Of a stretch of DNA of 64,000 nucleotides, positions 7,746 through 12,528 are shown piece by piece. Origin of the DNA: Prevotella sp. E13-17 (lineage in GTDB: Bacteria; Bacteroidota; Bacteroidia; Bacteroidales; Bacteroidaceae); NCBI RefSeq assembly GCF_022024035.1, contig NZ_CP091787.1, positions 2,356,001 through 2,420,000 of the forward strand, read 5' to 3'. Under the pieces are notes generated by a model. That model was not told the DNA's origin and did no database searches. It saw only the letters and a program-made list of their open reading frames with translations. The translations under genes and the position numbers were made by a program. The stretch's first letter is position 1; every line of letters begins with the position of its first letter.

Positions 7746-8052
7746 GGCCGACAGGGAAAGTCAAATTTTTCAAAATTGAAAACAAAATTTTTCATTTATT
7801 TTTTTGTCCTCACAAGCCGAATGGATATAAAATACTGTTTAATTTTGAATCAAATTTTGAAGAATTTCCCGCCGTTAGGCGGCCCAACCAATGAAAACTT
7901 TATTTTACCTACGGATTTTACGAATTTTACGAATTTTTATTCCGTTAAAACCCAATCTGTAAAATCCGTATCGCTCGGCTTTGCCGCTTTTACAAAGGCG
8001 GAACGCCGACTAAAAGAATCCGTAGGCCTTTAAAAACAAACAATTAACCGAT
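7746..8052. repeat. Non-coding spacer with nested hairpins between HU and smalltalk genes
   Basis: No gene is supported in this stretch. It holds an outer inverted repeat CCTACGGATT (7908-7917) / AATCCGTAGG (8017-8026) and an inner one CGGATTTTAC (7912-7921) / GTAAAATCCG (7959-7968), with ATTTTACGA repeated at 9-bp steps. An 85-codon open frame across it is low-complexity and follows the repeats. Confidence 0.7.
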
Positions 8053-8151
8053 ATGAAGAAACTGGAAACTTGGAAGTTTGTATTGCAAACTGTTATCGCC
8101 ATACTTACGGCGATTGCCACTAGCCTCGGCGTGGCTAGTTGTATGAATTAA
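8053..8151 (+). CDS. Smalltalk protein (32-residue membrane small protein)
   Basis: 32 residues, too short for most gene finders. The N-terminus MKKLETWKFVLQ and the hydrophobic 'AILTAIATSLGVASC' helix match the Bacteroidales 'smalltalk' family, which is found next to HU-like genes and usually followed by an N-acetylmuramoyl-L-alanine amidase. Here no amidase follows; REP-like repeats and a DUF559 gene take its place. The stop TAA is again the first part of a REP-like repeat (TAACCCCTCC). The molecular function of the family is not known. Confidence 0.85.
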   Translation: MKKLETWKFVLQTVIAILTAIATSLGVASCMN

Positions 8152-8252
8152 CCCCTCCCTTCAAGGGGAGGGGCAGGGGTGGGGTCTGTATCTCCATTGG
8201 CAGTTAGAACAATACTGACCCCACCCCCGACCCCTCCCCTACATGGGAGGGG
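8149..8252. repeat. REPIN-like inverted pair of GC-rich repeats after smalltalk
   Basis: CCCCTCCCTTCAAGGGGAGG... at 8152-8185 ends in GGTGGGGTC, and 8218-8252 carries the inverted GACCCCACCCCCGACCCCTC... form. The two halves flank ~32 bp of unique sequence. They belong to the same family as the arms at 8346, 8795 and 35648. Confidence 0.8.
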
Positions 8253-8353
8253 AGCGCCTACGGAGTCCTCGGATTTTCAACCGCATAGTATGAAAGATTC
8301 CTTTTTAGGGTATGTTCTATAAATTGCATATAGCATCCGCGAACTCCCCTCCC
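8245..8353 (+). repeat. Left copy of a ~110-bp direct repeat flanking the DUF559 gene
   Basis: From GGGAGGGGAG through GAAAGATTCCTTTTTAGGG and CTATAAATTGCATATAGCAT to CGCGAACTCCCCTCCC. The copy at 8829-8938 is roughly 85% identical by eye, with a 20-bp run (CTATAAATTGCATATAGCAT) unchanged. Confidence 0.85.
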
Positions 8354-8836
8354 TTCAAGGGGAGGGGCTGGGGGTGGGGTCTGTAACTAAACAATAATCC
8401 GCAGATTTCTACGTTATTGCAAAGAAAAGCCCCTATGCACTATCCTACAGCTAAAGCAAACGCTACAGAACAAAAAGAGTATCGCAAGGCTCTTCGCAAC
8501 AACATGACCACAGCAGAAGCTACGCTCTGGCGTGCCCTGAAGGGTCGTGGGGCTGGCGGCATGAAATTTCGTCGTCAGCAAGGTATAGGCCCTTATATTC
8601 TTGATTTCTACTGCCCTGGGCATCGGTTTGGAATAGAACTTGATGGTGCCAGCCATGATTACAAATACGAATACGATGAGCAGCGAACTGAATATCTTCG
8701 CGAGCAGGGTATCCGTGTGCTCCGCTTTAGCAATCAGCAGGTGCTTACATCCATGCAAGGTGTCTTGGCTGAGATTGTGCGCGCTGCCAATGAAGTTACA
8801 GACCCCACCCCCGACCCCTCCCCTTGAAGGGAGGGG
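8346..8836 (+). mobile_element. Putative DUF559 element with 42-bp terminal inverted repeats
   Basis: The left terminus 8346-8387 and the right terminus 8795-8836 are inverted repeats matching at 40 of 42 positions. They begin CCCCTCCCTTCAAGGGGAGG on the outer side and end GGTGGGGTCTGTAAC on the inner side. The only gene between them is the DUF559 nuclease. Direct repeats of ~110 bp overlap both ends. Mobility is inferred from this layout and from gene-less copies of the arms elsewhere in the window (8149-8252, 35648-35751). Confidence 0.6.
8435..8827 (+). CDS. DUF559 (Vsr-like, PD-(D/E)XK fold) endonuclease-domain protein
   Basis: 130 residues from the ATG at 8435; a TTG at 8417 in frame is less likely. 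The sequence has the DUF559 hallmarks: 'LRNNMTTAEATLWRALKGR', 'KFRRQQGIGPYILDFYC', and 'FGIELDGASH', which supply the D...ExD-type acidic site of this nuclease fold, followed by 'GIRVLRFSNQQV'. DUF559 proteins resemble very-short-patch repair endonucleases; a substrate for this group is not established. The last residues (TDPTPDPSP) and the TGA stop are encoded inside the right 42-bp inverted repeat, so the repeat is part of the gene. It is the only gene between those repeats. Confidence 0.85.
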   Translation: MHYPTAKANATEQKEYRKALRNNMTTAEATLWRALKGRGAGGMKFRRQQGIGPYILDFYCPGHRFGIELDGASHDYKYEYDEQRTEYLREQGIRVLRFSNQQVLTSMQGVLAEIVRAANEVTDPTPDPSP

Positions 8837-8938
8837 AGTACCTACAGGGACCTTGGATTATCAACCACGCAGTACGAAAGATTCCTTTTTGGGGATATGT
8901 TCTATAAATTGCATATAGCATCCGCGAACTCACCTCCC
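8829..8938 (+). repeat. Right copy of the ~110-bp direct repeat
   Basis: Partner of 8245-8353. It starts inside the right inverted repeat of the DUF559 element and ends TCCGCGAACTCACCTCCC, where a further half-REP (CCTCCCATATATGGGAGGGG) follows. Confidence 0.85.
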
Positions 8939-8981
8939 ATATATGGGAGGGGAGGGGCTGCGCAAGGTTCAAGCTAAGGAA

Positions 8982-8999
8982 GCTAGTTGTATGAACTAG
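8982..8999 (+). pseudogene. Remnant of the 3' end of a smalltalk gene
   Basis: GCTAGTTGTATGAACTAG encodes A-S-C-M-N-stop, the same five residues that end the intact smalltalk protein at 8134-8151 (one silent change in Asn and a different stop). No start or hydrophobic core precedes it. It looks like the tail of a duplicated or disrupted smalltalk gene left next to its terminator. Confidence 0.6.
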
Positions 9000-9107: not shown

Positions 9108-11462
9108 ATGAAGATGCTACTCACTGTGGCAATAATGCAGATTGCAATCATCAAGGCTGTTGCCACGCCCATAGACCAACTGTTGGAGCGCATAGACAAA
9201 GGGGCTTCACAGAAATTCAAAATAGAACTAAGACAGGAGAAGACGACCAAAAATGTGGATGCCGTACAAAAGGACTTCTTCGAACTGGACCAGCAGGGAC
9301 AGCGCGTGGTAGTGAGAGGCAACACGTGGGTCAATATTGCCGTTGGCATCAACTGGTACCTGAAATACTACGCAGGCATACATCTGACGTGGAACCACAT
9401 GAACGCCCAACTGCCCAAAGTGTTACCACGCGTAAAAAAACGTGAGCGTCACGACACGCCCCTAAAGTTGCGCTATGCCTACAACTACTGCACATTTTCT
9501 TATTCGATGGCCTTCTGGGACTGGGAGCGCTGGCAACAGGAGATTGACTGGCTGGCGCTGCACGGTGTTAATATGCCACTGGCTATTGTGGGTGAAGAAT
9601 GCGTGTGGCGCGAGATGCTGCTAAAGTTGGGATACAGCGAGAAGCAGATAGGACAATTCATAGCGGGACCAGCCTTTTTGGCTTGGTGGGAAATGAACAA
9701 CCTGGAGGGATGGGGCGGACCACTCCCACGCTCATGGTATGACCGTCAAGCACGGCTTCAGCGACAGATACTGAAACGTATGAAAGAGCTAGGCATGCAC
9801 CCTGTATTGCCTGGCTATTGCGGCATGATGCCTTCAGACTATACCAACGACAAGAAAATACTATGGAATGGTTTTACGCGTCCATCCAATGTTCCAACCA
9901 CAGATCCACGCTTCGACGAAATCAGCAAGTTATACTACGACGAGCTGACACGGCTCTATGGCAAAGCTGACTTTTACTCGATGGACCCCTTCCACGAGAG
10001 CAGCGACGATGCTTCGATAGACTATGCCGAGGCGGGACGCAAACTAATGGCTGCCATGAAACGGACTAACCCACAGGCCACATGGGTGGTGCAGGGATGG
10101 ACGGAGAATCCTCGTCCCGAGATGCTCGATGCCCTTAAGCCTGGCGACCTGCTTATATTGGACCTATTCTCGGAATGTCGCCCCATGTATGGTGCTCCAT
10201 CAATTTGGCGTCGCAAGGATGGTTACAAACAACACCAATGGTTGTTCTGCTTACTCCAGAACTTTGGCGCCAACGTAGGCTTACACGGTCGCATGGATCA
10301 ACTATTAGACAACTTCTACAGCGTGGACCAGCCCACCATGAAGGGCATTGGTTTCACCATGGAGGGCACAGAGAACAACCCTGTGATGTTTGAACTGATG
10401 AGCGAGCTGCCCTGGCGCCCCCAAAAGTTCGAAAAAGAACAGTGGGTCAAAGGCTATGTGCATGCCAGATATGGCCTTCCAACAACCACCGATGAGAAAG
10501 GAAAGAATGCTGACAACACCTCTCAGTTCTCCGCTCGAGCTTGCTCGCTTTCCTCAGAAAGAACTCTCAGTTCTCAACTAGAACGCTCCTGGCTCCTTCT
10601 TGCCCGCACCATATACAACTGTCCGGCTGGCAACAACCAGCAGGGGCCTCACGAGAGCATTTTCTGCGGACGACCTTCACTGAACAATTTCCAGGCTTCA
10701 TCGTGGTCGAAGATGAAGAACTACTACACGCCCGCCTCTACACTGGAGGCAGCACGACTTTTCCTGGAGGGCGTCACACCGATACTTACGAACAGCGATG
10801 ATAGCAAGGCCATTTCACCGACTGGCTGCGAGCGAGCTGCTTTCGACCTTGTTGACATTACCCGTCAGGCGCTGGCCGATCAGGCTCGCGTACAGTATCA
10901 GCACACCATTGCCGACTATAAGGCCTTCGACATAGACGCATTCCGTCGCGACAGTCAGCGTTTTCTCGACATGCTCCTACTGCAAGACGAACTGTTAGGC
11001 ACTTGTCGCGAATTTCGACTAGGCCACTGGCTGGAAGCTGCCAAACGCTGTGGCACCACCACAGACGAACAACAACTCTACGAATGGAACGCCCGTGTAC
11101 AGATCACCACTTGGGGTAATCGCTACTGCGCCGACACAGGTGGATTGCGCGACTATGCACACAAGGAGTGGCAGGGACTACTAAAGGATTTCTATTATCC
11201 CCGTTGGAAAACTTATTTCGATGCTCTCCTGGCACAAATGGAAGCACAGCTACACCCGCAACCCGAGCTATTAGGAGGTGGACCGAACGCCAACAAGACT
11301 GCTGCCGAACTCTTTGCAATGGCTCTGCCACAAGAGGTAGTCATCGACTGGTATGCCATGGAAGAGCCTTGGACAAAGGCTCATAACATCTACTCGGCAG
11401 AACCTGAGGGTAATGCCCTACAGGTAGCTCAAAAAATCATGAACTTTCTCAATGGAAAATAA
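9108..11462 (+). CDS. GH89 alpha-N-acetylglucosaminidase (NAGLU-like)
   Basis: 784 residues from the ATG at 9108, which gives a signal peptide (MKMLLTVAIMQIAIIKAVA) and fits the promoter; an upstream TTG start would sit inside the promoter. It removes terminal alpha-linked GlcNAc from glycans. NAGLU motifs are clear: 'LRYAYNYCTFSYSMAFWDWE', 'HGVNMPLAIVGEECVW', 'YSMDPFHESSD' with Glu297 as likely acid/base, and 'GFTMEGTENNPVMFELMSE' with Glu419 as likely nucleophile. Near residue 475 a low-complexity stretch encoded by 10521-10575 (two TCTCAGTTCTC copies) may be an insertion. The gene overlaps the downstream acetyltransferase by 11 bp. Confidence 0.95.
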   Translation: MKMLLTVAIMQIAIIKAVATPIDQLLERIDKGASQKFKIELRQEKTTKNVDAVQKDFFELDQQGQRVVVRGNTWVNIAVGINWYLKYYAGIHLTWNHMNAQLPKVLPRVKKRERHDTPLKLRYAYNYCTFSYSMAFWDWERWQQEIDWLALHGVNMPLAIVGEECVWREMLLKLGYSEKQIGQFIAGPAFLAWWEMNNLEGWGGPLPRSWYDRQARLQRQILKRMKELGMHPVLPGYCGMMPSDYTNDKKILWNGFTRPSNVPTTDPRFDEISKLYYDELTRLYGKADFYSMDPFHESSDDASIDYAEAGRKLMAAMKRTNPQATWVVQGWTENPRPEMLDALKPGDLLILDLFSECRPMYGAPSIWRRKDGYKQHQWLFCLLQNFGANVGLHGRMDQLLDNFYSVDQPTMKGIGFTMEGTENNPVMFELMSELPWRPQKFEKEQWVKGYVHARYGLPTTTDEKGKNADNTSQFSARACSLSSERTLSSQLERSWLLLARTIYNCPAGNNQQGPHESIFCGRPSLNNFQASSWSKMKNYYTPASTLEAARLFLEGVTPILTNSDDSKAISPTGCERAAFDLVDITRQALADQARVQYQHTIADYKAFDIDAFRRDSQRFLDMLLLQDELLGTCREFRLGHWLEAAKRCGTTTDEQQLYEWNARVQITTWGNRYCADTGGLRDYAHKEWQGLLKDFYYPRWKTYFDALLAQMEAQLHPQPELLGGGPNANKTAAELFAMALPQEVVIDWYAMEEPWTKAHNIYSAEPEGNALQVAQKIMNFLNGK

Positions 11463-12528
11463 ACAAAGACTGCTATCATTAGACGTCCTACGCGGTATGA
11501 CCGTAGCTGGCATGATATTAGTAAACAATGGCTACGGTGAATCATTCACCATGTTGGGACACTCACGCTGGAACGGACTGACGCCCTGCGACCTCGTGTT
11601 TCCTTTCTTTCTCTTCATTGTGGGCATAGCATGTTATCTTTCGCTGGCCAAAGGCGGATTCACCCCCACTCCACAAACGCTACGACGCATTGCCAAGCGC
11701 ACGATATTACTCTTCGTGATAGGCCTGGCCATCAACTGGTTTCATGATGCCCTGAAAGGTGACCCACTGGGCTTCGACCACCTGCGTCTGTGGGCGGTGA
11801 TGCAACGCATAGCCCTATGTTATGGCGCTGTATCGCTCATTGCGCTATATATGAACCATCGCTACATCGTGCCACTCATCATTGCTTTGCTGAGTGGTTA
11901 TACATTATTATTAATATGGGGCAATGGCTACAGCGAAGACCCCACACAGAACATCCTGGCACGTGCCGACAGAAGCCTGTTTGGCTATGCCCACCTATAC
12001 CACAAGAGCCCTGTTGACCCAGAAGGTCTCTTGGGCACCATCTCAAGCATTGCCCACGTACTGATTGGCTTCTACTGCGGCAAAGCCATCTATATGGCTA
12101 AAAACGTAGAACACAAGGTGATGGGGCTCTTTGTCATTGGCACCGTATGTCTGGTGGCTGGCTACCTGCTGAGCTTTGGACTACCACTGAACAAACGCGT
12201 GTGGAGCCCTTCGTATGTACTTGTTACGTGTGCGCTTGCTGCCCTGCTGCAGGCCCTGTTGATGTGGCTGATTGACATTCGTCAAAAAAACAAATGGACC
12301 AAACCCTTCTGCGTCTTCGGCATGAATGCACTCGCACTCTACATAGTGAGCGAGGTGCTTTCCATCATTTTCGGACAATTTAGTGTTAACGATCTTGTTT
12401 ACTGCACATTACATACTTTCATCATTCCTTTACGATGGGCTTCGCTGGCCTATGCGCTAAGTTTCGTCATGTTGAATTATGCTATTGGTTACGCACTCTA
12501 CAGAAAGCAAATTTATATTAAATTATAA
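11452..12528 (+). CDS. HGSNAT-like heparan-alpha-glucosaminide N-acetyltransferase family membrane protein
   Basis: 358 residues with about ten membrane segments. 'LLSLDVLRGMTVAGMILVNN' and 'TPCDLVFPFFLFIVGIA' are typical of the DUF5009/HGSNAT (YeiB-related) family. In animals HGSNAT carries acetyl groups from acetyl-CoA across a membrane onto terminal alpha-glucosamine. Family members in bacteria are mostly uncharacterised. The start overlaps the GH89 stop by 11 bp, so both are made from one mRNA, and the pair suggests joint handling of alpha-GlcN/alpha-GlcNAc ends. Confidence 0.85.
   Translation: MENKQRLLSLDVLRGMTVAGMILVNNGYGESFTMLGHSRWNGLTPCDLVFPFFLFIVGIACYLSLAKGGFTPTPQTLRRIAKRTILLFVIGLAINWFHDALKGDPLGFDHLRLWAVMQRIALCYGAVSLIALYMNHRYIVPLIIALLSGYTLLLIWGNGYSEDPTQNILARADRSLFGYAHLYHKSPVDPEGLLGTISSIAHVLIGFYCGKAIYMAKNVEHKVMGLFVIGTVCLVAGYLLSFGLPLNKRVWSPSYVLVTCALAALLQALLMWLIDIRQKNKWTKPFCVFGMNALALYIVSEVLSIIFGQFSVNDLVYCTLHTFIIPLRWASLAYALSFVMLNYAIGYALYRKQIYIKL

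Follow-up and report, generated by a model that had tools for sequence, protein, structure and literature searches.

Homing endonucleases of the EDxHD type, such as I-Bth0305I, have a Vsr-like fold, and the available part of one source records that free-standing homing genes exist too (PMC3943268). The repetitive extragenic palindrome (REP)-like sequences that are abundant in many bacteria can accompany another kind of gene. As far as the accessible portions of two sources describe them, REP-associated tyrosine transposases (RAYTs, or REPtrons) lie between inverted REP-like palindromes, with dispersed copies and with short inverted-pair derivatives, the REP doublets forming hairpins (REPINs) (PMC6006769, PMC3733652). 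REPtrons are reported in such portions not to transpose as a unit, and a REP survey, in the sections available, left some palindrome families without a dedicated enzyme (PMC3733652). Here, we describe a DUF559 gene enclosed by REP-like palindromic arms at positions 8343-8839 of a 64,000-nucleotide stretch of Prevotella sp. E13-17 (hereafter the window, to which all plain coordinates refer), whose genome is a single contig of 3.45 Mb. Judged from sequence comparison, the gene and its arms are one unit, with relatives in several phyla whose borders are the same although their sites are unrelated, and this unit likely spreads as a homing-type element that needs no transposase. The C/G-run palindromes would thereby gain a candidate owner, a gene with a homing-endonuclease fold that carries them with it as one unit, across several phyla. 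The element and the repeats around it comprise the following parts.

8343..8839, plus strand: the whole minimal element (left arm, DUF559 gene and right arm; 497 bp), delimited by the arms and by where homology with relatives located elsewhere runs out, at the outer arm edges.
8343..8388, no strand assigned: left arm, a REP-like palindrome with a C/G-run tail, one half of inverted pair I2.
8435..8827, plus strand: DUF559 gene, 130 aa, a predicted Vsr/EDxHD-fold nuclease (Pfam, predicted fold).
8794..8839, no strand assigned: right arm, encoding the end of the DUF559 gene and its stop (inverted pair, translation).
8152..8254, no strand assigned: 103-bp REPIN-like unit of two inverted palindromes with a short spacer, in at least 19 genome copies.
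8213..8372, no strand assigned: left copy of the direct repeat, overlapping the left arm (repeat families D2 and D3).
8797..8957, no strand assigned: right copy of the direct repeat, overlapping the right arm and the gene end (repeat families D2 and D3).

Pfam assigns the gene to DUF559 (PF04480, E 5.5e-34), and the predicted fold of its product matches both I-Bth0305I and Vsr; the modelled protein appears to have a Vsr-like catalytic fold with the E, D, H and D residues. The arms are 46 nt each with 96% complementarity. A preliminary description of this DNA had reported 42-bp inverted repeats around the gene, which proved real and form the core of these arms, and it had rightly noted that the right repeat encodes the gene end: the right arm supplies the final nine or ten residues (VTDPTPDPSP) and the stop. 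The direct repeat that it had placed at the outer edges is likewise present, but its length of about 110 bp was an underestimate. Two parts, 8213-8310/8797-8894 (98 nt, 84%) and 8302-8372/8887-8957 (71 nt, 86%), merge into a single repeat, about 160 bp long, that is present on both sides of the gene. Each copy has two palindromes, the second inverted, with about 88 nt of spacer between them; additional palindromes lie at 8152 and 8931. Among the open reading frames of the window and their Pfam matches, no transposase was found within the unit. Inspection by eye revealed no GT[AG]G tag 5' of the stem in the window's arms; GTGG is present in the tail.

The borders of the unit were read from pairs of related elements, which are not mutually independent. 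In the 58 pairs located at different sites, DNA homology overruns the outer arm edge by at most 7 nt, and it ends within 5 nt of that edge on at least one side in 29 and on both sides in 8; when the two elements share a site, homology continues into the host genes in 44 of 45 pairs. Similar arms also go with closely related genes at other sites. Close relatives at different sites (protein identity of at least 65%) have a median arm similarity of 0.71 (25 pairs), compared with 0.34 for most pairs. Across all different-site pairs, the arm-protein coevolution is weak (rho 0.118; 13/500 permutations as high), the signal residing in the close pairs.

All five DUF559 genes of the Prevotella sp. E13-17 genome have an inverted arm pair of their own, and over several genomes the arms are far more alike within a locus (0.76, n=32) than between loci of one genome (0.28, n=160). 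The gene is present in 87/150 congeneric genomes and in 198/345 genomes of the phylum (102/155 genera). To quantify bracketing, the left flank was matched locally against the reverse complement of the right flank, with a score of at least 18 as the cut-off. High match scores to DUF559 determined the choice of genus, phylum-top and GTDB loci, which are therefore not a random sample; for the 40 phylum-sample loci, the list of genomes still lacking a locus was followed in its given order and each contributed one, two loci close to the end of a contig being skipped. Excluded were 1/30 phylum-top and 2/80 GTDB loci with short flanks, and 3/30 HNH, 6/30 PF13366 and 4/30 PF05635 loci as unusable. The cut-off was reached by 61/74 congeneric loci (sham intervals, 3/154), 14/29 phylum-top loci (0/5), 17/40 phylum-sample loci (1/344) and 52/78 GTDB loci (1/626), the last with record titles that span several phyla. 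None of the 27 HNH control genes from the same genus was bracketed, even at a score of 14. Flanks cross-paired between different loci reach 18 in 13% (genus), 4% (phylum-top) and 20% (GTDB); such palindromes are thus common beside DUF559 in general, yet matched pairs far exceed cross-pairs.

The palindromes track DUF559 by genome as well as by locus. The pattern CCCCTCYCN{2,8}GRGAGGGG has 63 copies in the Prevotella sp. E13-17 genome, and congeners range from 0 to 302. When completeness of at least 90% was required, at least five copies were present in 31/38 genomes with strong DUF559 matches versus 2/33 others (p 5e-11), and the same test over all 150 genomes gave 62/79 versus 12/71, kinship being ignored in both. 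A few genomes carry palindromes without a detected DUF559, and at least one exception to the co-occurrence has a different arm type (genome G039, locus L051). The two outcomes that the preliminary description had named as fatal, DUF559 homologues mostly devoid of such repeats and repeats equally common near unrelated genes, did not occur: bracketing lies far above the controls in the genus, phylum and GTDB samples, and the palindromes go with DUF559 between genomes and between loci. Records with a match were rare among phages (2/50,697) and plasmids (45/72,556, some of them chromosome-sized).

The 103-bp unit at 8152-8254 has at least 19 copies including the window's own, counted over loci L001-L030, which are 30 of the 78 genome matches; one other copy is identical to that of the window. 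Its spacer contains, beside the arm, a 22-nt match to the end of the DUF559 gene (8774-8795), equaled in 7 of 2000 shuffles. With an inverted palindrome pair, multiple copies and internal sequence from a larger element, the unit has the makeup of a REPIN or of a miniature inverted-repeat transposable element derivative, and it is likely, on these matches, an internally deleted form of the element.

Empty and filled sites could be compared. A DegT-like aminotransferase gene of Prevotella sp. E13-17 carries an in-frame insertion of 528 bp net that is missing in all 21 readable relatives, 18 of equal length and 3 with a longer native stretch that lacks palindromes (loci L279-L302, minus L294, L301 and L302, where the junction was unreadable; L303-L307 lie outside the comparison). 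About 9 to 12 nt of the target were apparently replaced, and no target duplication was seen at this insertion, the only one checked for it. For the window's own insertion, no empty site was available: the HU gene, DUF559 and the palindromes are all missing upstream of the gene for NAGLU in the 29 relatives read. Together with the borders at the arms and the bracketing rates, the empty sites support the earlier suggestion that nuclease gene and repeats form one element; its further idea, that the nuclease acts on the palindromes, stands as a hypothesis. The in-frame insertions, the recurrent, homing-like sites and the bracketing of two further gene families go beyond the preliminary description.

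At the yicC-gmk junction, 110 loci were read from 139 genomes with gmk (9 of these lacked a recognizable yicC end, and 350 nt upstream was scored instead). DUF559 is found in 18 of them, and palindromes in 17/18 with DUF559 versus 2/92 without. The start of the left arm and the yicC stop are no more than about 20 nt apart; the right arm, in the majority of the 18 carriers, adjoins gmk at approximately its fourth or fifth codon, the native start being lost. Carriers are scattered almost randomly over the host tree, with 15 changes compared with 16.8 in shuffles (12/100 as low; 99 rows), as counted by parsimony on a quick tree with gains and losses pooled. A recurrent place with many carriers and no host-tree pattern is what homing predicts, and repeated loss would fit too. 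In the genome of Prevotella sp. E13-17 itself, the nadD-like gene that follows gmk starts with an arm-like peptide (L031), and this operon may hold a second remnant. More generally, 47 of the 74 congeneric loci share their site with another genome, in 12 site clusters obtained by single linkage on neighbor genes (siteB merges two paralogous host genes and was left aside when examples of twice-hit sites were chosen). The element thus shows the pattern expected of EDxHD homing, in which conserved sites are filled in some genomes and empty in their relatives.

Borders at the arms, empty sites, recurrence at sites and co-occurrence with palindromes all emerge from the comparison of genomes. In the mechanism that we propose, the predicted Vsr/EDxHD-fold nuclease would cut or nick DNA at or near the target, recognizing the arm palindromes as a hairpin or as a duplex, and the arms would probably assist cutting. 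Host repair would then copy the unit in, replacing little target DNA and leaving no target duplication. Once the start of the next gene has been annexed, loss of the unit would be costly. In this scenario, a widespread domain of unknown function would acquire a role.

The element sometimes also lies in frame within host genes, housekeeping genes among them. The DUF559 domain is extended by at least 60 aa on both sides at 7/74 genus, 14/30 phylum-top, 9/40 phylum-sample and 19/80 GTDB loci. Pfam, run on 17 of these 49 frames, identified the host domains MetG (L154, L171), MetH (L424, L141, L156), PriA (L148), class I tRNA synthetase (L168), HsdM (L138, L150, L443), MmeI (L146), Mur ligase (L155) and UvrD helicase (L427), and LeuS was recognized by eye as a further host (L071, L093, L135). 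Some of the host proteins in these fusions are essential. The linkers appear to be encoded by the arms, as in PLPMGEGRGEG (L138) and LPSPSGRGAGGEG (L139). Translation of the arms, within genes or at gene starts, probably makes the insertions tolerable and their loss costly, and the proposed element would explain nuclease domains with Pro/Gly-rich linkers in MetH, MetG, PriA, HsdM and others. A shortage of stops in the arms accounts poorly for this in-frame tolerance, as a stop occurs in 24.7% of arm frames compared with 33.5% of random stretches. In the LeuS-like frame of L135, one repeat-encoded peptide appears at two places, once without and once with DUF559.

How, then, does the element compare with the systems described above? 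It shares with the EDxHD homing endonucleases the predicted Vsr-like fold; however, we class it as neither an intron nor an intein (no search aimed at these was made), it ends in palindromic inverted arms, it has multicopy short derivatives, and it sits in frame without a splicing part and without a DNA-binding region beyond the 130-aa gene. With RAYTs and their REPINs it has in common a gene between inverted palindromes, dispersed copies and short inverted-pair derivatives, but the enzyme is a predicted DUF559 nuclease in place of a Y1 tyrosine (HUH) transposase, and, unlike what is reported for REPtrons, elements at different sites have their borders at the arms. In-frame palindromes within protein genes are known also from Rickettsia palindromic elements and intragenic REPs, a likeness drawn from the description in the available part of the source (PMC3733652); unlike the Rickettsia elements, the DUF559 insertion carries a predicted nuclease gene between its palindromes. 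Insertion sequences with a DDE transposase differ in having that enzyme, and the single insertion checked here, at DegT, shows no duplication. In the literature covered, which leaves out preprints and most subscription papers, we found no published description of DUF559 with palindromic ends, as far as the texts were accessible.

In Escherichia coli, the DUF559 gene ycjD lies between sapF and fabI (L518, L519). An arm-like palindrome encodes its 3' end, and another palindrome, inverted, follows downstream. No left arm was found, and the gene is apparently fixed at this place in most genomes that have it: most of the sapF-fabI stretch with ycjD is present in 3363/5426 E. coli genomes. A different DUF559 variant occurs in four E. 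coli genomes; in the one inspected, it sits at the sapF-fabI junction as well. As a strain-level empty-site test, E. coli proved unsuitable; three other genomes inspected have a different cassette beside fabI, so there is no clean empty site.

Other small genes occupy the yicC-gmk junction in some congeners, namely PDDEXK_3 (L334, L344) and 23S_rRNA_IVP (L359, L392), one of each being confirmed by Pfam and the others assigned by likeness. Across the genus, PF13366 (PDDEXK_3) loci (L458-L487) are bracketed in 21/24 cases at a score of at least 14 and in 16/24 at 18, and PF05635 (23S_rRNA_IVP) loci (L488-L517) in 21/26 and 16/26, respectively; a score of 16 was reached by 0/48 and 2/52 sham intervals. 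The brackets are family specific and use different repeat languages, and repeat-owning small genes may thus form a broader class. We tentatively entertain a transposase-free mobile class in which such genes (DUF559, PDDEXK_3, 23S_rRNA_IVP), each with private inverted repeats, might insert by break-and-copy homing at shared operon junctions, take over housekeeping start codons so that loss of the element is costly, enter proteins in frame via linkers that the repeats encode, and be the source of much of the orphan REP-like DNA in bacterial genomes. In the window itself, ACGGATTTTACGAATTTTACGAATT-type repeats and their inverted partner (I8) lie at 7910-8027, near the DUF559 element, and resemble the brackets of PDDEXK_3 genes.

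One caution comes from the same families: PF05635 is not known to be a nuclease, and bracketing alone is thus no proof of nuclease action. The arms may instead act in RNA, their stem insulating the insert or excising it in the manner of 23S rRNA intervening sequences, with the enzyme as a passenger or an RNA-level partner and spread by another route. Long inverted pairs within transcribed operons would suit this explanation, as would the bracketing of 23S_rRNA_IVP, named after intervening sequences, and its presence at the gmk junction. However, the linkers that the arms encode in the in-frame fusions imply translation of the stretch and not its removal, the predicted fold matches a DNA homing endonuclease, and we regard an RNA-level role as unlikely. 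We judge similarly unlikely an ancient insertion at each site followed by many losses, with no present drive. DUF559 lineages do mostly follow sites (15 changes versus 34.7 in shuffles), which vertical descent also predicts, and a few junctions at gmk resemble remnants (L376, L385, L390). Yet 15 changes for 18 carriers would demand that the unit was lost cleanly many times, with start codons restored; more than one DUF559 lineage is present at argC and likewise at etf, and near-related elements sit in different host genes (L034, L129).

It is quite unlikely, in our estimation, that another enzyme such as a RAYT spreads the palindromes and that DUF559, perhaps as a mismatch-repair-type nuclease, is carried along as their passenger. 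VsrA of Caulobacter, which has the same domain, is proposed to be a mismatch repair enzyme, with genetic evidence that it causes a DNA damage response, and the accessible part of that report makes no mention of flanking palindromes (PMC12907096). Palindromes without a detected DUF559 in a few genomes would also fit a passenger, as would the three Y1_Tnp genes of the Prevotella sp. E13-17 genome; however, none of these three loci has the DUF559-type palindromes within the stretch read, and ownership of the palindromes by a RAYT is accordingly unsupported. One of them, L065 (G000:C1:1135871-1136230), has its Y1_Tnp gene, of the RAYT/IS200 class, flanked by another inverted repeat, 67 nt long. 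Palindromes and DUF559, on the other hand, coincide by genome and by locus, and the borders coincide with the arms. That C/G-run repeats simply match one another anywhere, by chance or low complexity, is highly improbable: the arms are indeed low in complexity, and the cross-paired flanks of the genus and GTDB loci score accordingly, but the sham intervals, the HNH loci, the unit borders and the empty sites contradict such an artifact. Homing of the DUF559 unit thus stays our preferred explanation.

Downstream of the element, positions 9108-12528 of the window hold a gene for a NAGLU-family alpha-N-acetylglucosaminidase, followed by one for an HGSNAT-like membrane protein.
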